Made by a program: the position numbers and the translations under genes | From: Batillaria attramentaria | Taxonomy: Eukaryota > Mollusca > Gastropoda > Batillariidae | Length of the DNA stretch: 64,000 bases | Assembly (NCBI GenBank): GCA_018292915.2 | Contig: JACVVK020000323.1 | Location: forward strand, 271,001-335,000 | Reading direction: 5' to 3' | Notes under the pieces: generated by a model | The model's input: only the letters and a program-made list of their open reading frames with translations | What the model was told of the DNA's origin: nothing | Database searches by the model: none | Shown: positions 308 through 61,405 of the stretch, in pieces | Layout: each line of letters begins with the position of its first letter | Numbering within the stretch: the stretch's first letter is position 1

Positions 308-1754
308 GGCTCACTTGTGTAACAAAGTGAGTCTATGTAATAGCCCTCCGTCCTCTGTCTGTGTGTGAGTGTGTGTGTGTGTGTGTGTGTCTGTCTGTCT
401 GTGTGTCCACAGTAAACCTTAACATTGGCTTTTTCTCAGAATCTACAAATAGCAGAGGCACCAAACTTGGCCTGCTGATAGACAGCCATGAGACCTTTCA
501 AAACATACCATATTGATTGACCTTGACCCAAGGTCAAGGCCACTAAAGCTGTCTGTCTGCTAGTTTTCATTGGCATTTTCTCAGAATCTAGAAAAGCCAG
601 AGACGTCAAACTTTGCATGATGATAGACATTGACAACACCTTTACTGACATACCTGTATTCAGTGACTTTGAGTCAAGGTCAAGGCCATAAAAGCTCTTT
701 AGCGGAAACCTTCCAAAACCTTAACATTGGCATTTTCTCAGAAACAATGAATAGCAGAGGCACCTAACTTGGCATGCTGATACACAGCCGTAAGACCTTT
801 CAAAACATACCATATTGACTGACCTTGATCCAAGGTCAAGGTCACCAAAGCTGTCTGTTTGGAAATTTTACATTGGCATTTTCTCAGAATCTAGAAAAGC
901 CAGAGACATCAAACTTGCATGATGATAGACATTGACAACAACTTTACTGACATACCTGTATTCAGTGACTTTGAGTCAAGGTCAAGGCCATACAAGCTGT
1001 TTGCGGAAATGCTTTCAATACCTTAACATTGGCATTTTCTCAGAAACAATAAATGGTAGAAGCATCAAACCTGGTTTGCTGATAGACAGCAGTAAGACCT
1101 TCCAAGACGTACCGTTTGAATGACCTTGACCTTCAGTCAAGGTCACTAAATCTGTCTCACTGGAAATTTACAATTGCTATTTTCTCAAAATCTAGGGACA
1201 CCAGAGGCATCAAACTTTGCATGATGATAGACATTGACAAAACCTGTACTGGCATACTTGTATTCAATTTCCTTGAGTCAAGGTCAAGGCCACTCAAATT
1301 GTTTTGCGGAGACTTTAACGTTAGCATTTTCCCGGAAACAACAAATAGCAGAGGCACCAAACAAGGCACAATGATAGGCAGCAATGAGACCTATGCAGAC
1401 ATAGCCTTTTGAATGACCTTGACTCAAGGTCAAGGTCAATACAGCTGTCTGTTGTGAATTTTACATTACCATTTGTACAGAAGCTGCAAAAACCAGAGCT
1501 ATCAAACATGGCATAAAGATAGTCATTGATAAGCTCTTCACTTACAGATCTCATTTGAATGACCTTGACCCAAAGTCAAGGTGATACAAAACTGTCCTGG
1601 GAAAATTGTTATGTTGCCATTAACCATTTTCTTAGGAACTATGAACACAAGAGACATCTTACTTCAGGACAGACAGTGATAACTTTACAAACATACTCTT
1701 TTGAATGACCTTGACCCATCTCACAAGTGAGCCAAGGAGGCTTTGCCCCTCTAG
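308..1754 (+). mobile_element. Helentron-like non-autonomous element, copy H1 (ACT subfamily)
   Basis: It begins after a T run with GGCTCACTTGTG and carries a GT-rich microsatellite near the 5' end. About seven to eight degenerate core units of roughly 130-190 bp follow, each with TGACCTTGA...TCAAGGTCA. It ends with the inverted subterminal repeat CACAAGTGAGCC, a short hairpin, then CTAG followed by T. This layout matches Helentron-associated (DINE/pearl-type) elements: subterminal repeats, microsatellite, tandem cores, 3' stem-loop, T|T target. No protein is encoded; the open frames are read-through of the core units. Family assignment is inference from structure. Confidence 0.75.
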
Positions 1755-2478
1755 TTATTATTATTATTATATAAAACTAGACACAAACCGCTGGCTTGTC
1801 AGTCACTGATCTCTCATCGTCTACGATATCATTCTACAGCAAAGCCGGGTTTGTTGTAGCTAAATTCTATCAAGTTATCATGGCCTCGATCACCATTCTC
1901 TATTCAGACTGCGAGCAATGAGCCTGAAGTTTATGATACGTTTCAGATCCCTAATTTCGCATTCCATCGCACACTCAGAAGCACTGACTCGTGGCGAGAT
2001 CTCCGAAGCAGCACGCGGCGCGCGTTACCTCCACGTGTGAGAGCCCCACCATGCGTGCAGCATGCAAGGCGCGACACGCGTGCGTGCGTGCGATGTAGCA
2101 CCGACGCTAGTGTGCACCGGCCCTTAGACGGTCCGGTTACAGTGCGCTGACGGGACTGCAAACTCTGCCCGGCTGCGATGGTACTGTGGATGATGAGCGC
2201 ATGGCCAGTGGTGATTTTAAACTTTGTTCAAGAGTAGTGGCAGACTCCATGGGATGCCCTCCCGGAGAACACACTCAACATTGTTTTATCAAATATCTGT
2301 GATAGTCTCCCGTGTTGCCGACTTAACCGACATCGACATTACGTATTCACATCTTTTGAAAGGGGAAGATCCCCCCGGTGCGTACCATGTGTTTACAGTC
2401 GCACATTTCTCAATCTCGTGCGTGGATTTTGCCGAGATTTGCGTAAAACATTACTGCGCAGATTTTTTTGAAGGTGTT
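1755..2478. other. Unassigned intronic sequence
   Basis: After a short ATT microsatellite (about 1757-1773) I see no gene, recognisable transposon end or long repeat. Confidence 0.5.
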
Positions 2479-2668
2479 GTTCTCAGGATGTTCTCCCTGA
2501 CAGCATCTTTACCTTCTTGAAAGAGTCAAATCTGTTCTATAAAATTTAGACACCTCAAGTAATTCAGGGGTGGGTGGGTGTTTGGGGGTTTAACGTCTCA
2601 AGTAATTCAGACTATCCTCGAACTCTGCATGTTCGATGTACAAAGAAGTGAAACGCGTTTATTATTTA
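2479..2668 (+). repeat. Dispersed repeat, inverted relative to 12790-12925
   Basis: The segment with GACACCTCAAGTAATTCAG and CGATGTACAAAGAAGTGAAA reappears as reverse complement at 12790-12925. In this copy a 29-bp SINE scrap interrupts it. Family unknown. Confidence 0.65.
2568..2596 (-). mobile_element. 29-bp SINE-2 tail insertion with 14-bp TSD
   Basis: The insert matches only the terminal tail of SINE family 2 (…GTTTAAC… with the GGGTGGGT stretch, reverse orientation). It is flanked on both sides by CTCAAGTAATTCAG (2554-2567 and 2597-2610). The related locus at 12790-12925 has no such insert. It is an extreme 5' truncation. Confidence 0.8.
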
Positions 2669-2751
2669 AACTGGACATATTTTTAAAACATATATTTACA
2701 CCTTGTTTTATTGTCTTCCTTTTTCTTTACGTCTGGCGAAGAAGAACCTTG

Positions 2752-2802
2752 ATTAGCCGCGAAATAGTCTTTGTTGCTTGGGCGGCGTTAAGTCCTAAAT
2801 AA
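2752..2802 (+). repeat. Retroelement 3' tail (AGCCGCGAA...TTAAG-CCTAA type)
   Basis: AGCCGCGAAATAGTCTTTGT followed by a GC-rich stem and AAGTCCTAA. Very similar tails end at 48455 (plus strand) and about 34484-34513 (minus strand), so this is the conserved 3' end of a SINE or LINE family whose body is lost here. Confidence 0.6.
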
Positions 2803-2805
2803 CTA

Positions 2806-3532
2806 GCTGTCTATCATCAACCCGAGTTGGCTGCCTCTGCTGTTTTTAGTTTCTGAGAAATTGGCAACGTTATGTTTTTAAAGTTTTCGGCAAACAGCTT
2901 GTATGGCCTTGACCTTGACTCAAGGTCACTGAGTACAGGTATGTCAGTAAATGTCTGTCAGTGTGTATCATCATGCAAAGTGTGATGCCATTGGTGTTTC
3001 TAGATTCTGAGAAAATGCCAATGTTGAAATTCCAAACAGCTTTAATTACCTTGACCTTGAGTGAAGGTCATTTAACAGGTTTGTTTTCAAAGGTCTTGTC
3101 GCTGTCTGTCAGTAAGCCAAGTTTGGTGCCTCTGCTGTTTTTTTGTTTCTGAAATGCCAACGTAATTTTTTTCCCACAAACAGCTTGTATGGCCTTGACT
3201 TTGACTCCAGTCATTGAATACAGATACGCCAGTAAAGGTCATATCAATGTCTGTCAACATGCCAAGTTTCATGCCTCTGGTCTTTGTAGATTCTGAGAAA
3301 ATGCCCATATTCCTTTTTCCAGACAGATTTCATGACCTTGATCTCTAGTCAAGATCATTGAAAAGGCTATTTTTTAAAAAGAGCTTATTGCTTTCTATCA
3401 GCATGCCAAGTTTGGTGCCTTGGCTGTTTGTAAAAATTAATGACAATGTTCAAGTTGGGGGGGGGGGGGCACACATACACACACACACACAACGACTGAC
3501 AGACAGACGGCGGAGGGTTAATACATAGACAA
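2806..3532 (-). mobile_element. Helentron-like element, truncated copy H2
   Basis: Core units in reverse orientation, each with the GAGAAAATGCCAATGTT motif and a CCTTGACCTTGA/TCAAGG pair. They run to a G-run/CA microsatellite and the 5' end signature CGGAGGGTTAATACATAGAC. The subterminal repeat beyond that is lost, and the CTAG end is missing. Confidence 0.65.
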
Positions 3533-4482: not shown

Positions 4483-4483
4483 C

Positions 4484-4514
<31 letters not shown>

Positions 4515-6245: not shown

Positions 6246-6625
6246 TATGTATTTTCTAACTGCATATATACATCCTGTGTATGTTGTGAGTTGGTGTTCA
6301 CTCGCCTGACAGGCTAGAGTGTGCCTCTCTCCTGATCTTTTGTTTTTTTCTGTTTAATTGTGCCTTTTTTCACTGGAATAATTTACACCACTGGGTTCCT
6401 GATGTTCTGGGCTTCGTTTTGGTGTGCTTTTTGTGCACTTTTGCCATCAGATATGAGAACTTTATGGATTTTTCTGTCCCTGAGGCTGTTTGTGATTGCA
6501 GTTCATAGCCAGAGTTACAGGCAGAGTCAGTCATGCTTGGCTGACCCCAGCTGGCCTGTCTTTTCACAGGCTTTGCACAACTGTACCTTGCTTCACTTGA
6601 GACCACCTGCGGTTACTCACACGCT

Positions 6626-9600
6626 GTGTTGGATACCAGTGAACTTGAACCTGGCATATACAACAAACTTACACATGCCGGCTCCAGTGCTTCTGCACCG
6701 GGCCTACAAAATGTTCCTACACTTACCTGCCTCGGTGCACCGGTACCTGTTGGACAACGGATTAAATACTCAAGCTCTACACTGCATGGGCTTAGACATA
6801 CCAGTGTGTCTCATCCTGATCCAGACTTGTGTAGAACCCTACGTTCTCTACACATACACACCAGTGCACCCACTCTGTGCATACAGAAGAGGAGCAAACA
6901 GCGCCCCTTCCGAAGTGGTCGCAGAAAGAAGAGAGAGTCTCAAGCGGTCCCAGTACTTGGTTCTTCACCTTTAGGAAGTTTTGCAAGTCAGCCTATTCCT
7001 GTGCGTGTCTCATCTACCAGAATCAGGTCAGTCAGACATGAACAGACAAACGGTGTTTCAGTCCGCCATCAGAACCTAACACCTATTGCCATCTCTCCAC
7101 TGAACAGTGAGCGCACAGTTCCAACTGTGTCACTGGCATATTTCAACAGCCAGTCCTGTAGGCAGAAGACTACTGAGATTCATGATTTCATCGTTGATCA
7201 CAACATTGACATTCTTCTCTTGACTGAGACATGGTTACAGGCTCAAGGTGACGAACCACACATGGCAGCAATGACTCCTGCGGATTACAGCATGAAATCT
7301 TTTCCTCGTCTAGGACGGAGGGGTGGTGGAATTGCCGCACTTGCCAGAAACTCTATCATGAGCAACATGAGCTTCAAGTGTCTGTCATACAGTTCCTTTG
7401 AGGCAGTTGAAGTGCACACCAACCTCCACCAGCCTGTCTGTCTCACATGCATCTACCGCCCCCCTCCTAGTAAGAAAAACAAACTAACAAATCGGATGTT
7501 TCTCACTGATTTCCAGGATCTCCTTGATGTGCATCTCAGCAAGAGACGCCAACATGTCCTAGTGGGCGATTTCAACCTTCATTTTGACACTTCCTCTGAC
7601 AGTGATGTTAGAGCTGTTTGCTCAATGTTAGCCGATCACCATCTTCAGCAGTTAATAACCGAGGCAACACACAGGCGTGGACACATCCTGGACTGGCTCA
7701 TAACCAGAGAGGACTCTGATCTTCTTCACAAGGTCAGTGTTTCAGACTTTGATATCTCTGACCACAAGACGGTTTTCTTTGATTTGAAGTTGGTGAGGCC
7801 ACAACGTCCCAAACGGACTGTTACATCTAGAAACTTAAGGCAGATCAACATTGAAGTGTTTCATACTGACATGAAAACCATCATAGACACTGTGCTCACT
7901 GACTGCGGTGATGACCAGCTCCTGGACTTCTACAATTCTTCAATGAAGCAGCTTCTAGATCAGCATGCTCCATGCGTGACGAGGCGCCTCACGTCACGTC
8001 CTTCAGCGCCTTGGATTACTGACGATGTGCGTGATGCCAAGCGGACACTTCGACAAGCGGAAAGGCGGTGGCGATCAAGTGGCCTTACTGTTCATCGTCA
8101 GATCTTCACTAAGGAGCGCATGGGGCTGAAGTCTGTCCAGAAACATGCTATGAGAGAGTACTACTGTACTAAGCTGGAGGACTGCAAGTCTAGCAGACAG
8201 GTGTTTTCCATCACAAATGAACTACTTGGCAAGAAGAAAGAGTGTGTTTTACCTAATAATGTTCCCTTGTCAGAGCTTCCAGACAGGTTTGTGTATTTCT
8301 TTGAGAGCAAAATCTCAGACATTCGCAGCGAACTCGACACCTGTACTACTGATGCCACATTCCTTCCTTTTTCAGGGGTTGAGCTTAGTGACTTTACACC
8401 TGTCACGGAGGATTTCATTAGAGAACTTGTTCGTGCCTCCCCAAACAAAAGCTGTACCCTAGACCCTCTGCCTACATCATTTGTGAAGGAGTTTCAGTGC
8501 GAAATGATCCCTGTCATCACACGCATTGTCAACGCTTCGTTGTCGTCAGACTCTGTTCCACAGCACTTCAAACATGCAGTGGTATCGCCTCTTTTAAAGA
8601 AACCCAGTCTTGACCAGAATGTTCTTAAGAATTACAGACCAGTCTCAAACCTCCCCTTTCTCTCTAAAATCCTTGAGAAAGCTGTCCTCTCCCAGCTCCA
8701 GACTCACTTGCATCAAAATGGTCTTCTTGACACCTACCAGTCTGCGTACCGCAGACATCACAGCACCGAAACAGCACTCCTGCATGTGACCAACTGCCTG
8801 CTGGGTCATGCTGACCAGGGTAAAGTCTCCATACAGTCCCTGCTGGATCTTTCCGCCGCGTTTGACACGCTGGATCATGGCATTTTGCTGAAACGTCTGC
8901 AGATCACCTTTGGTATCACTGGTTCCGCTCTTGATTGGTTCAGGTCTTACCTCTCCAGCAGATCACAGTCTGTTCTAGTTCAGAACCGATCATCTCAGCC
9001 TGTGCAGCTGAGGTATGGTGTGCCGCAGGGGTCAGTGCTCGGCCCTATTCTGTTCAGCCTGTACACACAGCCTCTGTCTCAAATCATCAGCCAGAATGAG
9101 TGCATATTCCATAAGTACGCTGATGACACCCAGCTTGGTACTTCAGGCAAGCCACATGAGTTCTCTGGCTCTGTCAAGAGAATGGAGGGGTGTATTGAGG
9201 AAGTGAAGCAATGGATGTCATGTAATAAGCTCAAGCTTAATCATGACAAGACTGAAGCCATGATTGTTGGGTCTCGCTCAAGAGTGTCTGCTTCTGGTAA
9301 AGAACATCTGCGGGTGGGTGACAGCCAGATCTCTTTTCAGTCTGAGGTTAAGAATCTCGGGGTCATCCTCGATTCCAGTCTCACAATATCACAGCAAATC
9401 AGCTTTGTCTGCCGTGCAGTATATCTTGAACTCCGTCGACTGGGCATTATTAGACCATTTCTGACCGAGAAGGTTTCAGCACAGTTAGCCTGCTCACGCA
9501 TTCTCACACGCCTGGATTACTGCAACTCTCTGTTAGCTGGAGTCACCGCTGAGCAAACATCTCGTCTGCAGCGTATACAGAATCATGCTTCTAAGATTGT

Positions 9601-9965
9601 CCTTCAGAAGAAACGCAGAGATCATGCTACCCAACTTCTGAAGCATTTGCATTGGCTCCCTGTAAAACTGCGCATTGAGTTTAAACTCGCAACCCTTGCC
9701 TGTCGCTTCTTCGATTGTACACTGCCAGCATACTTGTCATCTTGTCTGGCCGCGTACGACCCACCAAGAACTCTCCGGTCCAGTTCAGAAAAAACTTCTC
9801 ACCATCCCCCGTGTGAAACTTACATTTGGCAGGAGGTCCTTTCAGTATCAGGTCCCGAGAGTTTGGAATTCACTTCCTCTACATGTCCGTCAGTCTCCAT
9901 CTTTCACAGTTTTTAAAAACAAACTAAAAACCCACTTCTTCCAGTCAGCCTTCTCTCCCTCTTAG
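6626..9965 (+). pseudogene. LINE ORF2: endonuclease-reverse transcriptase with one C-terminal frameshift
   Basis: Would nick target DNA and copy the element RNA in the nucleus. Residues counted from 6626: N-terminal basic region (about 88-108), apurinic-type endonuclease (about 168-390; ETW at 201, GDFN at 314, SDH at 378), then reverse transcriptase (NYRPVS 669, STETALL 713, DLSAAFDTLDH 741 with the motif A aspartates, GVPQGSVLGP 798, YADDTQ 831). All catalytic signatures are intact. After about residue 1055 the frame fails at an A6 run (9789-9794). The expected ending (RVWNSLP..., FKNKLKTHFF) continues in the neighbouring frame to a stop at 9965. The first codon here is not ATG and the true start is not determined. 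It resembles L2/CR1-clade elements. A one-base error in the A run could explain the break. Confidence 0.85.
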
Positions 9966-11160: not shown

Positions 11161-12668
11161 AGTAGAGAGGGAAAAGCCTCCATGGCTCCCTTGTGACATG
11201 GGCCAAGGTCATTCAAAAGAGTATGTTTGTAAAAAATCTTATCAATATCTATCATCATGCCAAGTAAGGTGTCAAGGTCATTCAAATAAGATCTCATCAA
11301 TGTCTATCATTATGCCATGGTGGACGCCTCTAGTATTTGTAATATCTCCCAAAACAGTAATATGGAATTTCACAACAGACAGCTTTAACGATCTTGACCT
11401 TGAGTACTTGAAATCAGATAAACCTGCATCTCCGGAACGTAGACGGCTAGAATCGCAGTTCTTGTTTTATTGTAATCGAAAAGAAAAACGTAATGTAACC
11501 GTACTATTTAGAATTTTTTTCTGTTTTCAAAGTTGTCTTAGCATTTTTCGTCTTTTTATGGCGATTTGCATGTAATTATTTTCGGGTGAACGGCAGGCTA
11601 GAAACACATTAACCCTCTGTATCGTCTGATTAAACATTGATCCAGGTGTATGACCCCCCACCCTCCTAGGGTCAAGGTCATTCAAATGAGATCTGTAAGA
11701 GCTTATCAATGCCTATCATTATGGCAAGTTTGACAGCTATAGTTTTTGTAGTTTCTGTACAAAATTAATGGTAATGTAAATTGCACAACAGACAGCTGTA
11801 ATGACCTTGATCTTGAGTCAAGGTCATTCAAAAGAGTATGTCTGCATAGGCCTCGTTTCTGTCTATCATTGTGCCTTGTTTGGCGCCTCTGCTGTTTGTT
11901 GTTTCCAAGAAAATGTTAACGTTAAATTCTCCGCAAAACATCTTGAATGGCCTTGACCTTGACTCAAGGAAATTGAATACAACTTTATACAAGTATGCCA
12001 GTACAGGTTTTGTCAATGTCTATCACTATGCATAGTTTGATGCCTCTGGTGCCCCTAGATTCTGAGAAAATGGCAATTTCCAATGAGACAGCTTTAATGA
12101 CCTTGACTTTCAGTCAGGGTCACTCAAAATGGTATGTCTATCAGCAAGCGAGGATTGGTGCTTCTGCTGTTTATTGTTTCTGAGAAAATGCTAATGTTAA
12201 GGTTTTGTAAGCTTTTCTGCAAACAGCTTGTATGGCCTTGACCTTGGGTCAAGGTCAATCAATATGACATGTTTTTAAAGTTCTTATGGCTGTCTATCAG
12301 AATGCCAAGTTTGATGCCTCTGCTGTTCATTGTTTCTGAGAAAATGCCAATGTTAAGGTTTTTGGAAGGTTTTCCGCAAAACAGCTTGTATGGCCTTAAC
12401 CTTGACTCAAAGTCACTGAATACAGGTATGTCAGTAAAGGTGTTGTCAATGTCTATCACCATGCAAAGTTTGATGTCTCTGGCTTTTCTACATTCTGAGA
12501 AATTGCCAATGTAAAATTTCCAGACAGCTTTAGTGGCCTTGACCTTGGGTCAAGGTCAATCAATATGGTATGTTTTGAGAGGTCTTATGGCTGTCTATCA
12601 GCATGCCAAGTTTGGTGCCTCTGCTATTTGTAGATTCTGAGAAAAGGCCAATATTAAGGTTTACTGAA

Positions 12669-12715
<47 letters not shown>

Positions 12716-12761
12716 GACGGAGGGTTATTACACAGACTCACTTTGTTACACAAGCAAGCCC
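11161..12761 (-). mobile_element. Helentron-like element(s), mosaic copy H3
   Basis: The low end has the 3' hairpin and GGCTCCCTTGTG-type repeat of the CCC subfamily. The high end has the ACT-subfamily 5' end (TAGACTCACTTTGTTACACA) and a CA microsatellite (12668-12712). Core units are interrupted at about 11412-11660 by unrelated sequence. The mismatched ends suggest two different elements joined by deletion rather than one insertion. Confidence 0.7.
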
Positions 12762-13353: not shown

Positions 13354-13548
13354 CTAGAGAGACAGAAGCCTACTTGGCTCACCTGTGAAATGGGTCACGG
13401 TCGTTTAAAGGAGTATGTAAAGGAGGTCTCATCTCTGTCTATCATCACGCCGTGGTTTTTTTTTTATCTCTGGTGTTCGTAGTTTCTGAGAAAATTACAA
13501 TGTTACAGTTTTCCATGGACAACTTGTATGGCCTTAACCTTTAGATAT
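13354..13548 (-). mobile_element. Helentron-like element, 3' end fragment
   Basis: Starts CTAGAGAGACAGAAGCCTAC followed by TTGGCTCACCTGTG and one core unit, then decays. This is a 3'-end remnant. Confidence 0.7.
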
Positions 13549-13970
13549 TATGGGTGCGTTTACATTATAACTGAGCCAGAACCGACCTCCGAACCGAACC
13601 GCACCAGGCCCACTTTCTTGTGTTTACTCCATTGTTGAATACTACAGTTCTGTGGCAGACGCGCTGACCTTTGGCATGGAGGAATGAAATATGTGCTTTT
13701 GCATGTGGTTTAAGAAGAGACGTATTCGACGCAACGGGAGAATAACATCACTTCATACACGATCATAAAACTTGCATTGATACTGCATTGGAAGATTGAC
13801 AGTGAGCGTTCACATGTCAAAGGTGCTCTTTTTTCAGAAGAATATTCATGGAGAGCCGTTCTGAAACGCCGTTTGAAGCATGTTTCACAAGGATTAGCAT
13901 TTGTTTAAATCAGGCTAACTTACCATTTCCGGATTCTGGAATCAAGAGGCAATTCTGCTCTAGGACAGGG
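13549..13970. other. Unassigned intronic sequence
   Basis: No gene, recognised repeat or RNA seen. Confidence 0.4.
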
Positions 13971-15217: not shown

Positions 15218-15264
15218 GGCTCCCTTGTGTAACAATGGGAGTCTATGTATTAACCCTCCGTCGT

Positions 15265-15300
<36 letters not shown>

Positions 15301-16289
15301 AGAAAACTTTAACATTGTCATTTTCTCAGAATCTACAAACAGCAGAGGCACCAAACTTGGCATGTTGATAGACAACCAAAAGACCTTTCAAAACATTTCA
15401 GTTTGAATGACCTTGACTCAAGGTCAAGGTCACTAAAGTTCTCTGTTTGAACATTTTACATTGGCATTTTCTCGCAATCTACAAACACCAGAGGTTTTAA
15501 ACTTTGTATGGTGATAGACGTTGATAAGAACTTTACAGATATACATGTAGTCAGTGGCCTTATGTCAAGGTCAAGGCCGTACAAGCTATTTTTGTGAAAC
15601 CTTAACATTGGCATTTTCTCAGAAACAACAAACAGCAGAGGCGCCAAACCTGGCGTGCTGATAGACAGTGATAAGACCTATGCACACATACCACCTTAAA
15701 TGACCTTGACTCAAGGTCAAGGTCATTAAAACAGTCTGTTGGGAAAATTTACATTTGCATTTTCTCAGAAGAATCAGAAGCATCAAACTATATGTGCAAT
15801 GATTGACATTTGCAGCACCTTTACAGACATACCTGTGTTCAGTGACTTTTATTCAAGGTCAAGGTCATGCAAGCGTTTTTGGAGAAACTTTAACCTTGGC
15901 ATTTTCTCCAAAACAACAAACACCAAACGAGGCATGATGATAGACAGCAATGAAACCTACCTTTCTGAATGACCTTGACTGAAGGTCAAGGTCATAAAAG
16001 CTGTCTGTTGTGAATTTTAACATTGCTGTTTTCGGAGGAACTACAAATACTAGAGGCATCAAACTTGGCATAATGATAGACATTGATGAGGTCTCATTTG
16101 AATGACCTTGACCAAAGGTCAAGGCCATACAAACTGTTTCGGGGAAAATTTTAATATTGCCTGAACTCTGAGCGCCAGAGACATTTACTTGGCATGATAA
16201 CGGATAGTGATAAGAGCTTTACAAACATACTCTTGTGAATAACCTTGACCTGTGTCACAAGGGAGCCATTGAGGCTTTTGCCTCTCTAG
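15218..16289 (+). mobile_element. Helentron-like element, copy H5 (CCC subfamily)
   Basis: Starts after a T run with GGCTCCCTTGTGTAACAATG, then a GT microsatellite and about six core units. It ends CACAAGGGAGCC, a hairpin (GAGGC-TTTT-GCCTC), then TCTAG followed by T. Both boundaries are clean, making it the best reference copy of the CCC subfamily. Confidence 0.8.
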
Positions 16290-17348
16290 TTGGTAGGATG
16301 TTTTGAACTTCATTCTTGTGAGGAATCAGTTGTGAGAATATGGTTTGAGGTTGATGATGAGGATATAAGTTTGAACTGTTTGATATTGTATGGGTACTTG
16401 GTAACTGGAAGGTGAATTTGTTGAGAATTTCTGATATCAATTCATAACTGGAACTTTCGAGATCGATGTCAGATGTTATTGTTGTTGAAATGGAACTTTG
16501 TTCAGGATCAAAGTTAGTTTATGGAGAAGAAATACTATCCGAGATAGTGGTAGTAATTACGGGTTAATATTGTACAGGAACGACGCCGGAGACCCGGTGA
16601 GCTGACCGCATAGTAGTATGTCCGCCTGATCAGCGTACACAACACCATGTTTGTCTACCATTGTCTGCCCCGTCGTTGTGGAGCTTGAAGCCAGCGACGT
16701 GTGTTTGTCTCCCTTGAGATCACGTGCAGCCATCCAGTCGAGCGCCGTGTCAAGGTGGAGCTATCCCTGAGTGTGATGGGGTACACCATCCTCAGCGTAT
16801 TATTTGTGAAGGTGTCTGCGGTCCAGCATTGTTAAAGTCACTTCCAGAAGTGCTTCCATTCACTCATTCCAGGAGAAGGTGAAAAGATTTGAATCGCCCG
16901 GAATTCCCAGAGGAATCGTCTGGCTCAAGTGTATATTTTTCTATCCAAGATCAACAAGTCTTCACCCAGTCTGCAGCATCGTTTTGACTAAGCTTGTTGA
17001 GTTCATCGTGTTTATTTCACTTTATTCATTTCACATCTAATTGTGTATAGTCAGTGGTTTTGTCCGCGTGGTAGTACATTTTGTATTCAGGCACATATCC
17101 TGAGAATAACCGATGTGCTGGTGAAATTGGAGGCTTCTGTTTTTCAGCTGTGAACGTAATTAAGTCTTAAAACTACTTATTAATTCGTGTGATTGTCTCA
17201 TAGTTTTTGTGTTTAAAAGGTCTCAGTCAAAAGAATAACTATTTGCTTGTGTGTATGAAAGGGAGTGGATGACGTTTGCATGCGTGCCTTTCTGAATGTC
17301 TGTGATTTGAAAGCGGAGTGAAAGTGTGAGACCGCCTTACGTTACAAG
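16290..17348. other. Unassigned intronic sequence
   Basis: No long frame, repeat terminus or RNA gene recognised. Confidence 0.4.
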
Positions 17349-21524: not shown

Positions 21525-22502
21525 AGGGTACGGCAAGTCAAGAGCACTATTGGGTTTAAATGACAGATATTGAGGTCCTAAGCTGTTAGACAGCAAAAGT
21601 TTTCGTGAACAAAGTACCATTTACTCAAAAATGCGCCGAAAACACCCTCTGCTTTCGGTTCCTGGGCTGCGCCATGTTGCCGCGCTCTTTCGTGAATGAG
21701 ACGGGAAAGGTACTGACGGTGACGTCACTCCACCACCACTGTCGGCAGTGCCCGCTTTGAGCGGGTTGTTCCAGAGTATTTTGTGTTCGAGATGCCACAG
21801 TGCAAAGCGTTTGGTTGTTTCAGCAAACAAGGCACATGTAAGAATGCAGGTGGAAGCCACAAAAGCTTTTTTTGAATTTCCGAATCTTAACAAATCGAAG
21901 GAAAAACGGAGGTTGTGTGCGAAATGGTTGGAGACCTTGAAGAACGGCTCGCTTGCCCCGAGTGCAGGAATACGCCTGGAACAATCGAGACCTCGTTCGT
22001 GGAGATCATTTTACCTCGGATTGTTTCACTGGCGCTTTTGCGAACGATGTTGTTGCTTCACTTGTCAAACACGCATCTCCCACTATTGCACTCGTTCTCA
22101 TCAATCGGCTCTTCCCGGGCCATCGGCGTCCACACTGTTTTCTGCCTGACCCCTTACTGAGCTCTTCCTCAGAATATTCTGGCTCGAAATTATAGGGAAC
22201 TATCCCCAAATCCATTCTAGCTTTCAGGAAATAAGCAAAGTGTGTATACGAGCCAGAAATAGCACGCCTAAAACGTGTAGCAGGCACACCTGCACGCAGT
22301 GTCAGAATCTCGCCTGCTGCTGAGTGGTGGAGTGACGTCACTGCTAGGATCAACATGGCAGCCTCCATGGCATCGCATTTCGGCTGCTTGGTGTGAAAAA
22401 TGCTGAATGGTGTATTCGTGTTCAAATCTTTCGGGCTGCAGCCGTCTAGGACCTCAATGTCTGTCATTTAAACCCAATAGTGCTCTTGACTTGCCGTACC
22501 CT
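21525..22502. mobile_element. Kolobok-like DNA transposon: TTAA TSD, ~57-bp TIRs, THAP fragment
   Basis: The outer sequence AGGGTACGGCAAGTCAAGAG continues for about 57 bp and is mirrored at the other end. TTAA flanks both sides (21521-21524 and 22503-22506). Outside, the sequence is a Helentron core unit that would read across a single TTAA. TTAA targets plus a THAP domain are features of Kolobok. At 978 bp it is too short to encode a full transposase. Confidence 0.8.
21792..22050 (+). pseudogene. THAP-domain fragment (broken)
   Basis: From an ATG: MPQCKAFGCF..., a basic stretch, FFEFPN, then RRLCAKWLETLKN, matching the order of a THAP zinc finger (N-terminal Met-Pro-x-Cys, the F-x-P segment, the Trp). 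After a frame change GDHFTSDCF supplies the expected …HF..DCF end. The third zinc-binding Cys (before GDHF) reads as Arg. THAP domains bind transposon ends in P and Kolobok transposases; here it is a relic. Confidence 0.65.
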
Positions 22503-22568
22503 TTAAATGACCTTGGCCTTAAGTCCGGTTCATTGAAATGGGTATAATAACTAGTTAACTGCGTATTT

Positions 22569-22831
22569 GGTAGGCGCTTTACCCAATTTCCTGTACTGGC
22601 TCAAAGCGCTGCGAGCTGAACCCAACACGCATGCTCACGTGAATCACGCGCATTCTTTCACACACTGGACATGAACACATTACAATCACGTGGTGCGAAG
22701 GATCAGCTTAGGTATTAAGTTTCGGAATTTAGAATTACATTTATTTCAAATGTCGAGAGCTGAACATCTTCCAAAGCAGAGGTGAGAGAGAGTGAGTACC
22801 CGGAGAGAACCCCCCGAAGATCGGCCCGAAT
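22569..22831 (-). mobile_element. tRNA-SINE family 3, 5'-truncated copy
   Basis: Begins with the reverse of the tail (TAGGCGCTTTACCCAATTTC) and extends to the GGTTCTCTCCGGGTACTC region, lacking the tRNA head. More diverged than the copies at 80 and 40620. Confidence 0.75.
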
Positions 22832-23522
22832 TAAGTCTTGAAAGGCCCTATCCTTGTTTATGATTATGTCAAATATGATGCCTCGGGTGTTTTTAATTTC
22901 TGAGAAAATGCCCATGTTAATTTTTTTTCTTTGTCTTTGACGAGCTGGTGGTATGACCTTGACCTTCAGATGAAGTTATGCAAAGAGGTATGTCGGCAAA
23001 GGTCTTGAGCTTTGATGCCTCCGGTGTTTGTATTTTCTGAGACACGTCAATGTCAAAATTCAAAACAGACAGCATTAATGACCTTGACCTTGACATTCAA
23101 AAGGATACGTCTTGAAAGGTTTCATCGCTGTGTATCGGCATGCCAAGTTTGGTGACTCGGCTGTGTGTACATTCTGCGGAAATGACAATGTTAAAGTTTT
23201 TGCGGACACAAACACAGACAGGCAGATACACAGACAGGCGACGGAGGATCATTATATAGACTCACTTTGTTTCACACCTTACCAACACAGGGCAGATTGC
23301 AACTGTAGACACAATAAAACTGCTGAAATGTGACAATGATCCGAGAGACCAGAAAATCGTCTCTGCAAGTGCCCGTCATCTCCAGTGAAATCGCCCAGAA
23401 CTGATTTCCAATAAAACTGACCGGCAGATCATTTTTCGAGAACTGATAACAGAAAACTGCCGTATGATGACGCTGTTAACTTTTCAACCTCGCATTATGT
23501 AAGTAGAAGTAAATGTACTTGC

Positions 23523-43141: not shown

Positions 43142-44386
43142 CAAACAATGGGGGCCGCACGTGGTGCCCGGATGCAAATCCAAAGGGTGCCTCCCAGTTT
43201 TTCCAAGTTGCCCATGGGTTTAGATCATATGGGCACCATATGAGAGCCCGAAAGTGGTTGGCTGGGTCCGCTTTTGTCTGCACTGCTGCCCACCTTTGGA
43301 TATCTCCGCCTTTTCCGGCTGTTTCTATTCAGGCGCACATGCGCCGACACTTTGCAAATGGCTGTCAAAGCAGACGAACCTCAACTCGAAGTGTCAGAGT
43401 TGGGCATTTTCCACTGTGTCACGCACGCACTGTAGCTTGTAAGGGTGAATTGTATATTTTCATGGAGCGTTATTCAGCGTCGGTTGTGTCCTATTTTATA
43501 TAAATATTCGTCCAGTCACCACAGAGATATTAATGTGTTGTATCTTTTTCCTATGGTTGGATCCCTGACCCACAGTTACAGGAGAGGGGCACCATGACTA
43601 CATGAACGAAAGCCATTGATGTAGTACAGAGTAGTAGAACAAAACAAATGACACCATTGACCAAAGTACAATGACAAGGGATGACAACTTGCCAAATTAG
43701 GTCTCGTATTCCCTATGGCTCAGTTGAAACAAAGCCCATGGGTGTAATTCTTTGAGGTGATGTTAGAAATAGTCAGATTCTCTATTCTCAGATTTTAGCC
43801 AGTTATATGTATATAATAAATGCAACGTACCCACACCTTAAGACACGCTTACCGACAATTCAAGTGTCTAAATACAGCAGTTCAAAAATAATCGCCTGCC
43901 TCACTTTAAACATACAACACACAAATTTAAAGATCGTATGTATATCTTCTTGGAGTATTTCAAACAGTTTGACTAAAAACAGCAACAGTTTTTGCATTTT
44001 CAAGGATATTTATTTTTTCTACTCTGAACACAGGGTGGGTGGGTGGGTGTTTAACGTCCTTTTGCACCACATACCTCAGAACAGATCTTTTGCCACTAGC
44101 TTACACAGAGTACATCGTGTTGCCAGATGCATGAACTATACTTTCAAACCTGCTCTTGTCACAGTCTTCTCAGAGGCTGTGAAAGGGACGGGCAACCTTT
44201 ACTGTGTTTGAATTAGACGCATCCGTGCGTATTATCAAAGTGAGTGACTGCGCAACCAGAAAAAAGCTCTTTCTGGTTTGTAGTGTAATTACATAATTAT
44301 CAGGGATAGGGAAGAAATCACGTGAACGTGAAGTCTTTAGTTATATCAGTCTTCCAAGACCCAGTCTAAATATCTAAGTTACTCAC
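43142..44386. other. Intronic sequence; small SINE-2 scrap
   Basis: A 40-bp SINE-2 tail fragment at about 44033-44072 (GGGTGGGTGTTTAACGTCC). Otherwise nothing recognised. Confidence 0.45.
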
Positions 44387-47292: not shown

Positions 47293-48408
47293 CTGTACAA
47301 ATCAGCCACCAACCAAGCGATCAGTCAGTGTTTAGACCATTGTACCTAGACTACAACGTTTTCCCCTAAAACAATATATATCTGGGTTTCCCCATGAGAG
47401 ACAGTAATTGCAAGACATTCCCTTACAGATAATTCCAACGAGCTACCTCTTATCACACATGCCTGTGAGAAGTACCGCTAAAGCATCCACCCCGAAATGA
47501 ACATTCAACCCCTTAAACCAACGGCCCCACGGGCTCGCCTTCACGCGGTGGGGCTGATTTTGCTGAGTTTGCCCACCCCTTTTTCTCTTCCCTCTGTTTT
47601 ATTTCTGTCTCCATTGGTCCATTCACCTGTCTTTTGCTCTCTTAACTCTCCACTGGGGGGGGGGGGGGGGGGGGGGTGTCAGTAAGTGGGTGTCTCTGCT
47701 GATCCTTGGTCAACTGAGGCATCTGAGGGTGGTTTCTGAAGGCCGACCACGGAATTTCCCCCACCTGGTCGTCGTCCTGGCGGGCTTTGTTCGCAGCGCC
47801 TTGCTGGTGCTGCTGAACACCTGCCACGGGAAGACCTTCAGAACGCACCCCTCTCAGGTGTGTTGTTTTCCCAAACTGCCTCACCGCGGGGAGGTTCCGT
47901 GTTGGTGCGGTCTTTTCTCCTACTGCATCCCAGGCATGTTGTCTTCATTGGCAAGTACGGAACTTTCCTCTCTACCTCTCTCGGTCTATCCCTCACCAGC
48001 CCATTCGCCCCTCTCTTTCTCTTTGAAACCTCCCGAATTTAGCCGCCCTGTCCTTCCTCTCATCTCTCATCAGATTTTTTAAGTTTGACCCTTTCATCTA
48101 TATTTCTTCTTTTTGACCCCTCAGTCACGTCTGCACTACCACTGGTTAGGGATACGTAATGCTGAGTATGAGCTGAGAACTGGTTTATTGCACTGGGAGA
48201 TGATAACTTGCAATATTTGCGCTTAGTATTTACGTTTCATTTACCTAGTTTGTTATTTGTTTTCTACGCCTTTTGTAGTCGGGAATTCGAGAAATTAGCA
48301 TGAAGGTGCAGCGTCTCCTGCATGTCCTAGGTTTAGTTTATACTGCCCCGTAGACCAGTTTGCATCATTTGTCCAACGGTACAATTTTTTTTCAAGTATT
48401 GCAGGCAC
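47293..48408. other. Unassigned; long G run
   Basis: A G tract at 47656-47677. A plus-strand frame at 47690-48082 and its antisense have no supporting features. Nothing else recognised. Confidence 0.4.
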
Positions 48409-54511: not shown

Positions 54512-55953
54512 CTAGAGGAGCAAAGCCTCCTTGGCTCACTTGTGAGATGGGTCAAGGTCATTCAAAAGAGTATGTTTCTAAAGCTCTTATCACTATCTTT
54601 CACGAAATAAGGTGTCTTGTGTTCATAGTTCCTAAGAAAACAGCAAATGGCAACATAACAGTTTTCCCAGGTCAAGGTCATTCAAATGAGATCTGTAAGT
54701 GAAGAGCTTATCAGTGACTATCATTATGCCAAATTTGATAACTCTAATTTTTGTAGTTTCTGTACAAATGGTAATGTAAAATTTCACAACAGACAGCTGT
54801 AATGACCTTGACCTTGAGTCAAGGTCACTCAAATGGGTATGTCTGCATAGGTCTCTTTGCTGCCTATCATTGTGCCTTGCTGCTGTTTGTTGTTTCCAAG
54901 GAAATGCTAACGTTAAAGTCTCCACAAAACATCTTGAATGGCCTTGACCTTGACCCAAGGAAATTGAATACAAGTATGCCAATACAGGTTATGCCAGTAC
55001 AGGTTTTGTCAATGTCTATCATGCCATGCAAAGTTTGATGCCTCTGGTACCACTACATTCTGAGAAAATGGCAATTTTAAATTTCCAATTACACATCTTT
55101 GACGACCTTGACCTTCAGTCAAGGTCATTCAAAATGGTAAGTCTTGAAAGGTCTTGCTGCTGTTTATCAGCAAGCCAGGTTTGGTGCTTCTGCTGTTTAT
55201 TGTTTCTGAGAAAATGCCAATGTTAAGGTTTTGGAAGGTTTTCCGCAAAACAGCTTGTATGGCCTTGACCTTGATACAAACTCACTTAATACAGGTATGT
55301 CAGTAAATGTGTTGTCAATGTCTATCATCATGCAAAGTTTGATGTCTCTGGCTTTTCTAGATTCTGAGGAAAATGCCAATGTAAATTTCCAAACAGACAG
55401 CTTTAGTGACCCTGACCTTCGGTCAAGGTCAGTCATTATGGTATGTTTTTGAAAGGTCTTATGGCTGTCTATCAGCTTGCCAAGTTGGGTGCCTCTGCTG
55501 TTCATTGTTTCTGAGAAAATGCCCATGTTAAGGTTTGGAAGGTTTTCCGCAAAACAGCTTGTATGGCCTTGACCTTGATTCAAAGTCACTTAATACAGGT
55601 ATGTCAGTAAAGGTGTTGTCAATATCCATCGCCATGCTAAGTTTGATGTCTCTGGCTTTCCTAAATTCTGAGAAAATGCCAATGTAAAATTTCCAAACAG
55701 ACAGCTTTAGTGACCTTGATCTTGGGTCAAGGTCAATCATTATAGTATGTTGTGAAAGGTCTTATGGCTGTCTATCAGCTTGCCAAGTTTGGTGCCTCTG
55801 CTGCTCATAGTTTCTGAGAAAATGCCAGTGTTAAGGTTTACTGCGGACACACAGACAGACAGACAGACACACAGACAGACAGACAGACAGACAGACACAC
55901 AGACAGACGACGGAGGGTTATTACATAGACTCACTTTGTTACACAAGTGAGCC
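54512..55953 (-). mobile_element. Helentron-like element, copy H7 (ACT subfamily)
   Basis: Starts CTAGAGGAGCAAAGCCTCC, TTGGCTCACTTGTG; seven or so core units; CAGACA microsatellite at 55847-55905; ends ACTCACTTTGTTACACAAGT-GAGCC before an A run. The empty site at 50964-50985 in copy B shows insertion between two Ts (minus sense) without TSD. Confidence 0.85.
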
Positions 55954-56136: not shown

Positions 56137-56181
56137 GGCTCACTTGTGTAACAAAGTGAGTCTATGTAATAACCCTCCGTC

Positions 56182-56231
<50 letters not shown>

Positions 56232-57562
56232 GCAGTAAACCTTAACATTGGAATCTACAAACAGCAGAGACACCAAAATTGGCCTGCTGATAGACAGCCA
56301 TAAGACCTTTCAAAAAAATACCATAATGATTGACCTTGGCCCAAGGTCAAGGTCACTAAAGCTGTCTGTTTGGAAATGTTACATTGGCATTTTCTCAGAA
56401 TCTAGAAAAGCCAGAGATATCAAACTTTGCAAGATGATGGACATTGACAACATCTTTACTGACATACCTGTATTCAGTGACTTTGAGTCAAGGTCAAGGC
56501 CAGGCAAGCAGTTTTGCGGAACACCTTCCGAAACTTTAACATTGGCATTTTCTCAGAAACAATGAACAGCAGAGGGACTAAACTCGGCACGCTGATAGAC
56601 AGCCGTAAGACCTTTCAAAACATACCAAGGTCAAGGTCACTAAAGCTGTCTGTTTGGAAATTTTACATTGGCATTTTCTCAGAATCTGGAAAAGCCAGAG
56701 ACATCAAACTTTGCATGATGATAGACATTGACAACACATTTACTGATACACTGTATTCAGTAAATTTGAGTCAAGGTCAAGGCCATACAGGCAGTTTTGC
56801 GGAAAACCTTCCAAAACCTTAACATTGGCATTCCCTCAGAAACAGTAAACAGCAGAAGCACCAAACCTGGCTTGCTGATAAACAGTAGTAAGACCTTTCA
56901 AGAAATACCATTTTGAGTGACCTTGACAGAAGGTCAAGGTCATCAAAGCTGTCTCACTGGAAATTTAAAATCGCCGTTTTCTCAGAATGTAGGGGTACCA
57001 GAGGCATTACACTTTGCATGATGATAGATATTGCCAAAACCTGTACTGACATACTTGTGTTCAATTTCCTTGAGTCAAGGTCAAGGCCATTTAACATGTT
57101 TTGCGGAGACTTTAACGTTAGCATTTTCTTGGAAATAACAAACAGCAGAGGCACCAAACAAGGCACAATGATAGACAGCATCGAAACCTATGCAGCCATA
57201 CCCATTTGAATGACCTTGACTTATCGTCAGTTGACTCAAGGTCAAGGTCATTACAGCTGTCTGTTGTGAAATTTTACATCACCATTTGTACAGAAACTAC
57301 AAAAACTAGAGCTATCAAACTTGGTATAATGATAGTCACTGATAAGCTCTTCACTTACAGGTCTCATTTGAATGACCTTGGTGCAAGGTCAAGGTCATAG
57401 AAGATGTCTCGGGAAAACTGTTATATTGCCGTTTTCTTACGAACTATGAATACAAGAGACACCTTACTTCAGGATAGCTAGTGATAAGAGCTTTACAAAC
57501 ATACTCTTTTGAATGAACTTGACCCATCTCACAAGTGAGCCAAGGAAGCTTTGCTCCTCTAG
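56137..57562 (+). mobile_element. Helentron-like element, copy H8 (ACT subfamily)
   Basis: Complete: T run, GGCTCACTTGTGTAACAAAG, GT microsatellite, cores, CACAAGTGAGCC, hairpin and CTCTAG before TTTT. Inserted in the T-rich stretch that is intact at about 51150-51175 in copy B. Confidence 0.85.
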
Positions 57563-57754
57563 TTTTCTAATTTTTTACCCTGGGGGGGGGGGGGGTATAT
57601 TTTTATGGTACCCCAGACACATTAGGTGCGATTTTGAGATCTAAACTGGGTTCTCCAGCACTTGAATGAAGTACGGCTAACGTTAAAATATAAGAGCGAC
57701 TATCTCCCAAATTCACCCTGTTTAAAGTCCGTATTCATGCTATCTATTTACAGC

Positions 57755-59419
57755 TAGAGAGGCAGCAGCCTCCATGGCTCCCTTGTGACATGGGTCAAGA
57801 TCATTCAAAAGAGCATGTTTGTAAAAAATCTTATCAATATCTATCATCATGCCAAGTAAGGCGTCTCTGGCGTTTCTTAGTTCCTGGAAATATTACAGTT
57901 TCCCCCAAAACTGTTTGTATGGCCTTGGCCTAGGGTCACGATCATTCAAATGAGATCTCCTAAATGTCTATCATTATGCCAAGTTTGACGCCTCTAGTAT
58001 TTGTAGTTTCTCCGAAAACGGTATATTGAAATTCACAACAGACAGCTTTCAAAGTGGTATGTATGCATAGGTGTTATTAATGTCTATTAGCACGCCAGGT
58101 TTGGCTCTTCTGCTGTTTGTAGATTCTGAGAAAATGCCAATGTCATGATTTCACAAAAATAGCTTGTTCGGCCTTGACTTTGACAAAAGGCCACTGGATA
58201 CATGTGTATCTGTAAAGTTCTTGTCAATGTCTATCATCAAGCAAAGTTTCAAATCTATGGTATTTGTAGATTCCAAGAAAATGCCAATATAACATTTTTA
58301 AAACAAACAGCTTTAGTGACCTTGACCTTAAGTCAAGGTCATTGAAAAGTATATACTTTGAAAGATCTTATGGCTGTCTATCAGCACTCCAAGTTTGGTG
58401 CCTCTGCTGTTTGTAGATCCTGAGAAAATGCCAATGTTAAGGTTTACTACAGAAATGTGGAAACTAGCTTGTACGGCCTTGACCTTGACACAAGGCCATT
58501 GAATACATGCATATCTGTAAAGTTCTTATCAATGTCTATCATCATGCAAACTTTAAAATCTCTGGTTTATGTAGATTCCAAGAAAATGCCAATGTAATAT
58601 TTTCAAACAGACCGCATAAGTGACCTTGACCTTGAGTCCAGGTCATTCAAAATCATATACTTTGAAAGGTCTTATGGCTGTCTATCAGCATGCCACGTCT
58701 GGTGCCTCTACTGTTTGTAGATTCTGAGAAAATGCCAATGTTAAGGTTTACTGCAGAAACGCGGAAAATAGCTTGTACAACCTTGACCTTGACACAAGGC
58801 CATTGAATACATGTATATCTGTAAAGTTCCAATTAATGTCTATAATCATGCAAAGTTTAAAATCTCTGGTATTTGTAAATTCCAAGAAAATGCCAATGTA
58901 AAATTTTCAGACTGCTTTAGTGACCTTGACCTTGAGTAAAGGTCATTCAACATGATATATTTTGAAAGATCTTAGGACTTTCTATCAGCAAGCCAAGTTT
59001 GGTGCCTCTGCTGTTTGCACTGCTGAATGATATGTTTTGAAAGGTCTTACTATCAGTACTCCAAGTTTGGTTTTTCTGAGAAAATGCCAGTGTTAAGGTT
59101 TATGCGGAAATGCGGAAAATTGCTTGTACGGCCTTGACCTTGAAACAAGGCCATTGAATACATGTATATCTGTAAAGTTCTTATCAATGCCTATCAGCAC
59201 GCAAAGTTTAAAATCTCTGGTATTTATAGATTCCAAGACAATGCCAATGTAAAATTTTCAAACAGACCGCTTTAGTGACCTTGACCTTGAGTAAAGATCA
59301 TTCAAAAGTATATATTTTAAAAGGTCTTAGGACTCACTATCAGCAAGCCAAGTTTGGTGCCTCTGCTGTTTGTACATTCTGAGAAAATGCCAATGTTAGG
59401 TTTTCTATACATTTACTGC

Positions 59420-59475
<56 letters not shown>

Positions 59476-59516
59476 CGGAGGGTTAGTACACAGACTCCCT
59501 TTGTTACACAAGGGAG
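57755..59516 (-). mobile_element. Helentron-like element, copy H9 (CCC subfamily)
   Basis: Starts CTAGAGAGGCAGCAGCCTCC, ATGGCTCCCTTGTG; about nine core units; CA microsatellite at 59425-59474; ends ACTCCCTTTGTTACACAAGG-GAG then A run. Longest copy in the window, with one partly collapsed unit near 59030-59100. Confidence 0.85.
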
Positions 59517-59608
59517 AAAAAAAGAGCTGATTTAGATAAATATTACGCCTTTAAACGCCAGAAAGCCAACTTTTCTGAAAAGGGCGATAACTCGTAAATC
59601 ATCTGTGC

Positions 59609-61227
59609 CACTCTTTGGGGCACAGAGTCTTTCAGTGGAAAGTACCTCTGTGCACGGTGGGGAAATGGCGCTCACTGCGCTACCGTGACGGGCCTAAATT
59701 GTCTCGGTGCTCTCAAACACAAGGTCGCGCACTATGTCATCCTTGACCAGTTTTGAACCCAGAGGGATCCTCAATGGCGCAAATGATGGCAGGCTGTCTT
59801 CAGAGTGAAAGTAGGCGTGTTTCTGAATCAGAGACATACATAACATGTCTCTGTCTGAATGGACAGATCTATATTACATTCTGTCCTAGAGCACGGGTGT
59901 GTATGCTTTTGTAATCGTCTCTTATTCCACCACAAGGCAGGTACGTGATCGTCTGCACCGCGCAATAATACTTGACTGTAGAGTGCAACACCTTTGCCTG
60001 TTAGAGTGCAACCCCCTTGCCGTTTACTCACATCCTGTTGGATCAGTGTACCACGTAAACATCAAAGCGCAACAATAATTGTCAGCTGACAAAGTTTTTA
60101 CCCAAACGAAAAGTGATCGGATATTCAAGACTTCGTTTTAAATCGAATCATATGACGTACAAGTCTTCGCTTTTCCTTAAAAAAAAATTCGCCATTTTTG
60201 AAAATGGCGCTGGCTGTAAGCAGTCAGAGAGGCAAACTAGAGAGGCAAAAGCCTCCATGGCTCCCTTGTGACAAGGGTCAAGGTCATTCACAAGTGTATG
60301 TTTGTAAAGCTCTTATCACTATCATCACGGCAAGTAAAGTGTCTCTGGTGTTCCAAGTTCCTGGCAATATAACAATTTTCCCCCCAAACAGTTTGCATGG
60401 CCTTGACAATCAAATGAGATCACATCAATGTCTATTATTATGCCAAGTTTGACGCCTCTAGTATTTGTAGTTCCTCCGAAAACGGTAATGTTAAAATCCA
60501 CAACAGACAGCGTTAATGACCTTGACCTTCAGTCAAGGTCATTCAAAAAGGTAGGTCTCATTGCAGTCTATCATCATGCCCTATTTGGTGCCTCAACTGT
60601 TTGTTGTTTCAGAGAAAATGCCAAGGTTAAAGCTTCCCCAAAACAGCTTGCATGGCCTTGACCTTGACTAAAAGTCACTGAACACAGGTATGTCAGTGAA
60701 GGTGTTGCCAATGTCTATCATCATGCAAAGTTTGATACTTCTGGTTCTTCCAGATTCCGAAAAAAATGCAAATGTAAAAATTTCCAAACAGACTGCTTTA
60801 ATGACCTTGACCCTTGGGTCAAGGTCATTTAAAATGGTATGTGTGCATAGGTCTTATTACTGTCTATCAGCACGCCAAGTTTGGCGCCTCTGCTGTTTGT
60901 TATTTCTGAGAAAATGCGAATGTTAAGGTTTCACAAAAATAGCTTGTATGGCCTTGACCTTGACACAAGGCCATTGCATACATGTATATCTGTAACGTTC
61001 TGATCAATGTCTATCATCATGCAAAGTTTCAAACCTCTGGTCTTTGTAGATTCCGTGAAAATGCCAATGTAAAATTTTCAAACAGACAGCGTTAGTGACC
61101 TTGACCTTGAGTCAAGGTCATTCAAAATGATATGTTTTGAAAGGTCTTATGGTTGTCTATCAGCATGCCATGTTTGGTGTCTCTGCTGTTTGTAGTTTCT
61201 GACAAAACGACAACGTTAGAGTTTTCT

Positions 61228-61273
<46 letters not shown>

Positions 61274-61405
61274 GACGGAGGGCTGTTACATAGACTCCCA
61301 TTGTTACACAAGGGAGCCAAAAATTCGCCATTTTTGAAAATGGCGCTGGCTGTAAGCAGTCACATTTTCACGCCCCGCCGAAAAGGGACTGCACTTTGGA
61401 GTCTA
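59609..61405. mobile_element. Non-autonomous element with 9-bp TSD (copy 2), split by Helentron H10
   Basis: CATCTGTGC on both sides (59600-59608, 61406-61414). The corresponding site in copy B (about 51423) has a single copy. It starts CACTCTTTGGGGCACAGAGT and ends GCACTTTGGAGTCTA, as copy 1 at 52364. Helentron H10 sits inside with a 44-bp duplication. Confidence 0.8.
60237..61318 (-). mobile_element. Helentron-like element, copy H10 (CCC subfamily)
   Basis: Starts CTAGAGAGGCAAAAGCCTCC, ATGGCTCCCTTGTG; about five core units; CA microsatellite at 61230-61270; ends ACTCCCATTGTTACACAAGG-GAGCC. Ten extra bases (GAGAGGCAAA) before CTAG repeat the hairpin arm. Confidence 0.85.

Follow-up and report, generated by a model that had tools for sequence, protein, structure and literature searches.

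In a 64-kb window of the Batillaria attramentaria genome (the whole stretch analysed, contig JACVVK020000323.1, positions 271,001 to 335,000), nine non-coding, non-autonomous Helentron (HINE) copies and one fragment of about one unit were found, all sharing tandem units. All counts, alignments and trees refer to this window. The slowest-evolving stretch of the unit was the outer half of an overlapping pair of half-sites; the inner and inverted copies were only mildly conserved. Judged by its sequence, the kept site is best read as an extended half-site of NR5A (FTZ-F1) type, with ERR or NR6 less likely. Overall, the feature is real and strongly non-random, it lies in a known element class, and the evidence favours selection on a receptor-type site.

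Distribution of the half-sites in the tandem units

The initial annotation had described these elements as carriers of nuclear receptor half-site arrays, and against shuffled controls the excess was clear. On both strands, TCAAGGTCA occurred exactly 85 times compared to 0.77 expected from 100 dinucleotide shuffles (largest count 3), and all 85 matches were inside the nine HINE copies by position. The degenerate form YCAAGGYCR was found 122 times, with 120 matches inside the ten element intervals, which together make up 11.4 kb, and two outside. The overlapping pair YCAAGGYCAAGGYCR had 33 exact occurrences, all in elements and all on one element strand.

The search for tandem units gave 74 non-overlapping hits, of which 58 were long enough for alignment and 57 were analysed (class A 27, class B 30); unit E8_57766p was left out as its window overruns the element end. 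Long units measured 114-163 bp, mostly about 146 or 154-158 bp, and belonged to two alternating classes which formed a dimer of about 302-304 bp. Removal of alignment columns with letters in less than 60% of the units reduced the alignment from 218 to 146 columns. Exact TGACCTTGA was present in 44 of the 58 units, TCAAGGTCA in unit orientation in 23 and both in only 16, so the claim that nearly every unit carries both orientations did not hold for exact matches. What recurred was two overlapping sites on one strand, TCAAGGTCAAGGYCA, next to which stood a looser inverted copy. What had been called an inverted pair is retained in the sense that this looser copy stands beside the pair, although the consistent feature is the same-strand pair and the inverted partner is less conserved. 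A dozen sites per insertion was correct for the long copies (13 exact in E1 and 12 in E6). An alignment-free search also returned TGACCTTGA as the commonest shared 9-mer, and the best 9-mer outside the motif was TGTCTATCA in 32 units. Among 13-mers, the box GAAAATGCCAATG tied with TGACCTTGACCTT, each in 20/58 units; the motif had no lead at this length because a variable position splits it. At alignment column 43 of the outer site, TGGCC replaced TGACC in 25 of 56 units (G 25, A 31).

Conservation of the outer half-site

The most informative nine columns of the unit lay in the pair (1.86 bits compared to a mean of 1.23, sd 0.21). The mean IQ-TREE site rate of the 15-column pair was the lowest among all 146 circular windows (p 2e-5 by permutation of columns, which were treated as exchangeable), and the inverted copy ranked 12 (p 0.05). 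Parsimony gave 40 changes over the 15 columns of the pair, or 2.67 per column, compared to 5.28 elsewhere (p 2e-4), with p 0.04 for the inverted copy. The lowest 9-column parsimony window was within the pair for all 57 units and for class A and class B separately, and the minimum stayed in the pair in three element groups, in nine leave-one-element-out sets and with another alignment setting and tree program. With three transition-variable positions allowed, the outer site was intact in 51 of the 57 units, while the median of all windows was 10.5 and the best window outside reached 36. Among the copies in the window the nonamer was hence more conserved than its neighbours, chiefly in the outer half-site and only mildly in the inner and inverted copies.

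Each unit has the pentamer CAAGG at three places, which provided an internal control. On one tree, the outer copy had undergone 2 changes, the inner copy 19 and the inverted copy 18, compared to 27.1 for five average columns in the rest of the unit (binomial p 2e-4 and 4e-4). Restricting the count to the 52 units that were gap-free there gave 2, 18 and 17 changes, respectively. A mutational cold spot at CAAGG would protect all three copies alike, and the 2, 19 and 18 changes argue against it as the cause of the conservation. The majority string of the unit had no CG at all, and the contrast is therefore unlikely to stem from CpG decay in the neighbouring bases.

The same counts bear on a structural explanation in which the rolling-circle machinery or array growth makes use of a hairpin or cruciform built from the inverted pair, with the arms kept for pairing. 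The hairpin formed in both units folded as DNA (z -4.43 and -3.92), and 403 of 480 cells were Watson-Crick pairs compared to a shuffle mean of 397.2 (sd 2.7), with 56 of 2000 shuffles reaching the observed 403. The pair of columns 43 and 63 was A-T in 28 units and G-C in 5, and the right arm of class B tied as the third-slowest window. However, a perfect 9-bp dyad was present in only 15 of the 57 units, and the 24 units with G at column 43 and a partner letter had 5 C, 15 T and 4 A opposite. Pairing also does not predict that CAAGG should change twice in one arm and 18 times in the other, and in the alignment units E5_23044p, E7_56555m and E9_60362p kept the outer site despite a mostly deleted inverted arm. 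The evidence for pairing was weak, and a hairpin as the cause of the conservation is quite unlikely. As the inverted arm was better kept in class B, it may have a subsidiary role or serve as a third receptor site.

An insertion of about 15 bases was observed in the loop of one dyad (unit 57132-57288), and deletions extended into the inverted arm of three units (56555-56679, 60362-60474 and 23044-23175). These might be products of hairpin slippage, which they resemble.

The next slowest stretch, chosen post hoc, was TGTCTATCA (complement TGATAGACA). Over its nine columns, 3 internal changes (p 0.0015) and 24 terminal changes (p 0.15) were counted. The TGATAG of this second box fits the GATA-factor consensus, WGATAR.

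Receptor class of the conserved site

Read along the HINE sense strand, the composition of the outer site over 56 units was T55 C55 A56 A55 G56 G56 (T31/C25) C53 (A50/G6). Its two most variable positions, 7 and 9, are degenerate positions of YCAAGGYCR, the site described for SF-1/NHR-25 (PMC3861103). All nine changes inferred at these two positions were transitions, compared to 51% overall (p 0.0025). YCAAGGYCR fitted the outer site in 51/57 units, the inner in 34/57 and the inverted in 25/57, while the ERR consensus, described as TNAAGGTCA (PMC3121748), fitted them in 26/57, 33/57 and 25/57, respectively; the slowest site had C at position 7 in 25/56 units. The original assignment to an ERR/FTZ-F1-type site thus shifted towards NR5A, whose consensus the slowest site matched in most units, with the ERR consensus covering it in fewer than half of them. 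The inner half was TGAAGGTCA in four units, a sequence used as an Ftz-F1 site (PMC3861103). FTZ-F1, HR39, ERR and HR4/GCNF are described for the gastropods Biomphalaria and Lottia (PMC4388693).

A site for an NR6/GCNF (HR4) dimer, with the unit providing the direct repeat without spacer (DR0) AGGTCAAGGYCA for a germ-cell receptor, was also considered. The conserved Oct4 DR0 bound by GCNF is given as AGGTCAAGGCT(C)A (PMC4861434), and the commonest 15-mer of the units, TCAAGGTCAAGGCCA (13 units), includes AGGTCAAGGCCA. Both AAGGYCR halves were kept in 40/57 units, and HR4 is reported in two gastropods, although group 6 receptors were absent from the oyster survey (PMC4388693). Both halves would be expected to be kept in a dimer site, whereas the inner half underwent 19 changes compared to 2 in the outer half. 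With the inner half apparently too loosely kept for obligate dimer binding, we regard an NR6 dimer site as very improbable.

Proposed role of the site

The finding that the slowest part of the repeat reads as a nuclear-receptor site suggests that a host regulator of gene activity is something the element depends on. Each central unit carries one strongly kept extended half-site, TCAAGGYCR, a second half-site that overlaps it and a looser copy in inverted orientation. A host receptor of NR5A (FTZ-F1/HR39) type, or an ERR/NR6 relative sharing the site, would bind the units in the germline or early embryo and open or transcribe the element chromatin. Copies keeping the site would then be favoured in mobilisation, and new insertions would scatter ready-made receptor sites which may affect host genes. 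Binding of the unit by such a receptor in a way that favours mobilisation is a proposal which we hold with about as much confidence as doubt.

Several observations weigh against this proposal. Terminal branches were constrained too (15 changes in an 11-column core, 1.36 compared to 3.57 per column), which is odd since copies that are dead after insertion should drift; the contrast between internal and terminal branches was in the expected direction but fell short of significance (Fisher p 0.11). The entire block is missing from unit E8_58014p, and the conservation of the TGTCTATCA box means that the receptor site is not the sole constrained part of the unit. Position 1, which is degenerate in YCAAGGYCR, was nearly fixed in the outer site (T55, C1), where the inner half-site overlaps, and only 4 of the 6 changes at position 1 of the inner site were transitions. 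A transposon protein or another host protein could also prefer the same sequence.

Constraint on terminal branches would fit an explanation without selection, in which the site is a passenger of recently amplified repeats, homogenised by gene conversion or by recombination restarting there. The units are related and the arrays expand, and non-allelic gene conversion among insertions of ISX, a Drosophila miranda helitron, is reported (PMC4384637). On the other hand, the tree-based counts score changes and not copies, and adjacent columns of the same units varied freely (27.1 changes per five columns, as given above). There is little to justify conversion tracts that stop at CCTTGA yet spare the inner copy, although it is identical, and the passenger explanation is considered unlikely.

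Architecture of the elements

Features are listed in Table 1, with strands given in the published HINE layout, in which the microsatellite end is the 5' end (PMC7492417). Two site blocks in this orientation exemplify unit classes A and B.

Table 1. Coordinates of the HINE copies, selected end structures and example site blocks in the window.
Feature	Position	Strand	Description
E1	308..1754	+	Complete HINE, subfamily F1, ends GGCTCACTTGTG / CACAAGTGAGCC; 8 long units and a partial one
E2	2804..3530	-	HINE without either end structure; 4 long units
E3	11162..12760	-	HINE with mosaic ends: 5' end F1-like, 3' end F2-like
E3x	13354..13553	-	HINE fragment with the 3' end and roughly one unit (nhmmer hits)
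E4	15218..16289	+	Complete HINE, subfamily F2, ends GGCTCCCTTGTG / CACAAGGGAGCC
E5	22501..23278	-	Broken, diverged HINE copy; approximate coordinates
E6	54512..55953	-	Complete HINE, subfamily F1
E7	56137..57562	+	Complete HINE, subfamily F1
E8	57754..59516	-	HINE, subfamily F2; 5' GG lost
E9	60237..61318	-	Complete HINE, subfamily F2
E1 5' end	308..333	+	5' subterminal inverted repeat GGCTCACTTGTG and complementary inverted repeat (hairpin); DNA fold z -3.13 for 308-345
E9 3' end	60237..60280	-	3' subterminal inverted repeat, palindrome GAGGCTTTTGCCTC, CTAG end; DNA fold z -2.76
Class-B block, example	54801..54827	-	Receptor-site-like pair and inverted partner; AATGACCTTGACCTTGAGTCAAGGTCA on the plus strand
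Class-A block, example	58473..58500	-	Receptor-site-like block; ACGGCCTTGACCTTGACACAAGGCCATT on the plus strand; outer site TCAAGGCCG

Both ends were examined in seven copies (E1, E3, E4, E6, E7, E8 and E9). From 5' to 3', these consisted of a T-run, the 5' subterminal inverted repeat (subTIR) GGCTCMCTTGTG, a complementary inverted repeat (IR), a stretch of CCCTCCGT, a microsatellite of TG or GTCT repeats, 6-11 long units with partial ones, the 3' subTIR CACAAGKGAGCC, a palindrome, CTAG and host TT. The subTIRs were exact in five copies (E1, E4, E6, E7 and E9), with E8 lacking GG and E3 being mosaic. In all seven, the IR GTGAGTC or GGGAGTC was located six or seven bases past the 5' subTIR and was followed by the TG/GTCT repeats; in E3 it no longer pairs with the altered subTIR. 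The 5' ends had DNA fold z values of -3.1 (E1), -3.3 (E7) and -2.3 (E9), while the 3' palindrome GAGGCTTTTGCCTC was present in E4 and E9 and weak in subfamily F1 (fold z -0.55 for the 3' end of E1). At least five T preceded the 5' end in 7/7 copies, part of which could be the element's own; the 3' flank was TT in six copies and CT at E8, and the terminus was CTAG in six and CTAC in E3. The terminal hallmarks support the classification as non-autonomous Helentrons, in agreement with the initial annotation of Helentron-like elements in about ten copies, that is, nine elements and the one-unit fragment.

Two subfamilies were distinguished, F1 (E1, E6, E7) with CTCAC/GTGAG and F2 (E4, E8, E9) with CTCCC/GGGAG in the 5' subTIR, the IR and the 3' subTIR, and this matched change in inverted parts suggests that the end pairing matters. 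E3 (11162-12760) combined an F1-type 5' end with an F2-type 3' end, a mosaic which suggests that copies recombined or that template switching took place between them. Host DNA on the two sides of E9 formed an exact direct repeat of 44 bp (60183-60226 and 61319-61362), and beyond its CTAG a 10-base partial repeat of the element 3' end (TTTGCCTCTC) was found. Helentrons are not known to produce target duplications of such size, and the 44-bp repeat may have arisen by accident during insertion or by tandem duplication.

The arrangement at the ends bears on whether the site is bound by the machinery of an autonomous Helentron (Rep/helicase, RPA or an endonuclease), its likeness to a nuclear-receptor site being accidental. 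TGACCTTGA adjoins the 3' subTIR, exactly in 3 of the 7 copies and one letter off in the rest, and the constraint is a property of the element family with a polarity relative to the ends. Against this, Helentron recognition probably acts through the ends, the degenerate positions fit NR5A, a fit that would not be required of an unrelated protein, and no autonomous partner was seen among the five frames scanned. Oyster HINEs with related ends are also described as able to have divergent repeat monomers (PMC7492417). Recognition by the element's own machinery is about as improbable as the passenger explanation.

Other features of the window

By its content (microsatellites and a LINE), the window is animal DNA. 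The long interspersed nuclear element (LINE) at 6545-9916 had a long open frame with endonuclease (Exo_endo_phos) and reverse transcriptase (RVT_1) domains. Among the 120 matches listed, its best organism-named match was Littorina saxatilis (58% identity), with higher-scoring matches existing, and the organism-named matches were Littorina (3), catfish (1) and coral (1), which would point to a gastropod host. A higher-order tandem array with 68-bp units within 288-bp repeats was located at 35136-37202, and minisatellites with 95-99% matches at 17347-18163 (55 bp), 27428-28087 (41 bp) and 29915-30370 (23 bp). Overlapping open frames rich in lysine repeats were found on the minus strand at 44366-47301. 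For the frame 44366-45799 no family was found, and none of the 7980 candidates scored was a homologue at E 0.001.

Comparison with known systems and implications

The elements resemble the HINE/DINE-1-like elements Cg_HINE of Crassostrea gigas, DINE-1 of Drosophila and HINE-Mo of a mite, which are described with subTIRs of about 11-15 bp, a complementary IR beside the 5' subTIR, a microsatellite close to the 5' end, tandem repeats in the centre, a 3' palindrome, a T-rich or TT target and no coding capacity (PMC7492417, PMC4067079). In contrast, the available descriptions, on which the comparison is based, include no receptor-site array. The ISX element of D. miranda, a helitron with an MSL recognition motif, likewise spreads host-regulator sites, although these serve the dosage-compensation complex and arose by a 10-bp deletion relative to the parent ISY, followed by refinement by selection (PMC4384637). 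No report joining a helitron with a nuclear receptor half-site was found in the open-licence papers searched. No relatives of the element pattern were found in viral contigs, and the scan of prokaryotic contigs gave a single match, in a Chloroflexi metagenome-assembled genome, which was taken as chance; both sets say little on animals.

A further parallel is the mouse short interspersed nuclear element (SINE) B1, in which the NR5A2 motif is TCAAGGCCA and 73.6% of 2-cell NR5A2 peaks overlap B1/Alu (PMC12848575). In our units the outer site was TCAAGGCCA in 19 and TCAAGGCCG in 4 more. B1/Alu also shares partial GATA6 motifs, and a 149-bp nucleosome fragment approximates the unit length here, whereas B1 is a retrotransposon of an unrelated class with one NR5A2 motif in the published fragment, for which binding is shown in mouse (PMC12848575). 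The parallel of an NR5A site with a GATA-like box is suggestive only. A doubtful extension would be that a molluscan rolling-circle family, independently of SINE B1, has arrived at nucleosome-length repeats with an NR5A-type pioneer site and a GATA-like box, so that insertions would act as receptor landing arrays keeping the element accessible in the germline or embryo and seeding receptor-driven regulation genome-wide.

To the question of what the central repeats do for the Helentron itself, the finding that the slowest bases of the repeat form a nuclear-receptor-type site, with CAAGG as an internal control, offers a testable answer. Binding by a host receptor, if it occurs, would make these elements an invertebrate counterpart of NR5A2 on SINE B1, and they would supply numerous receptor sites in the vicinity of genes.

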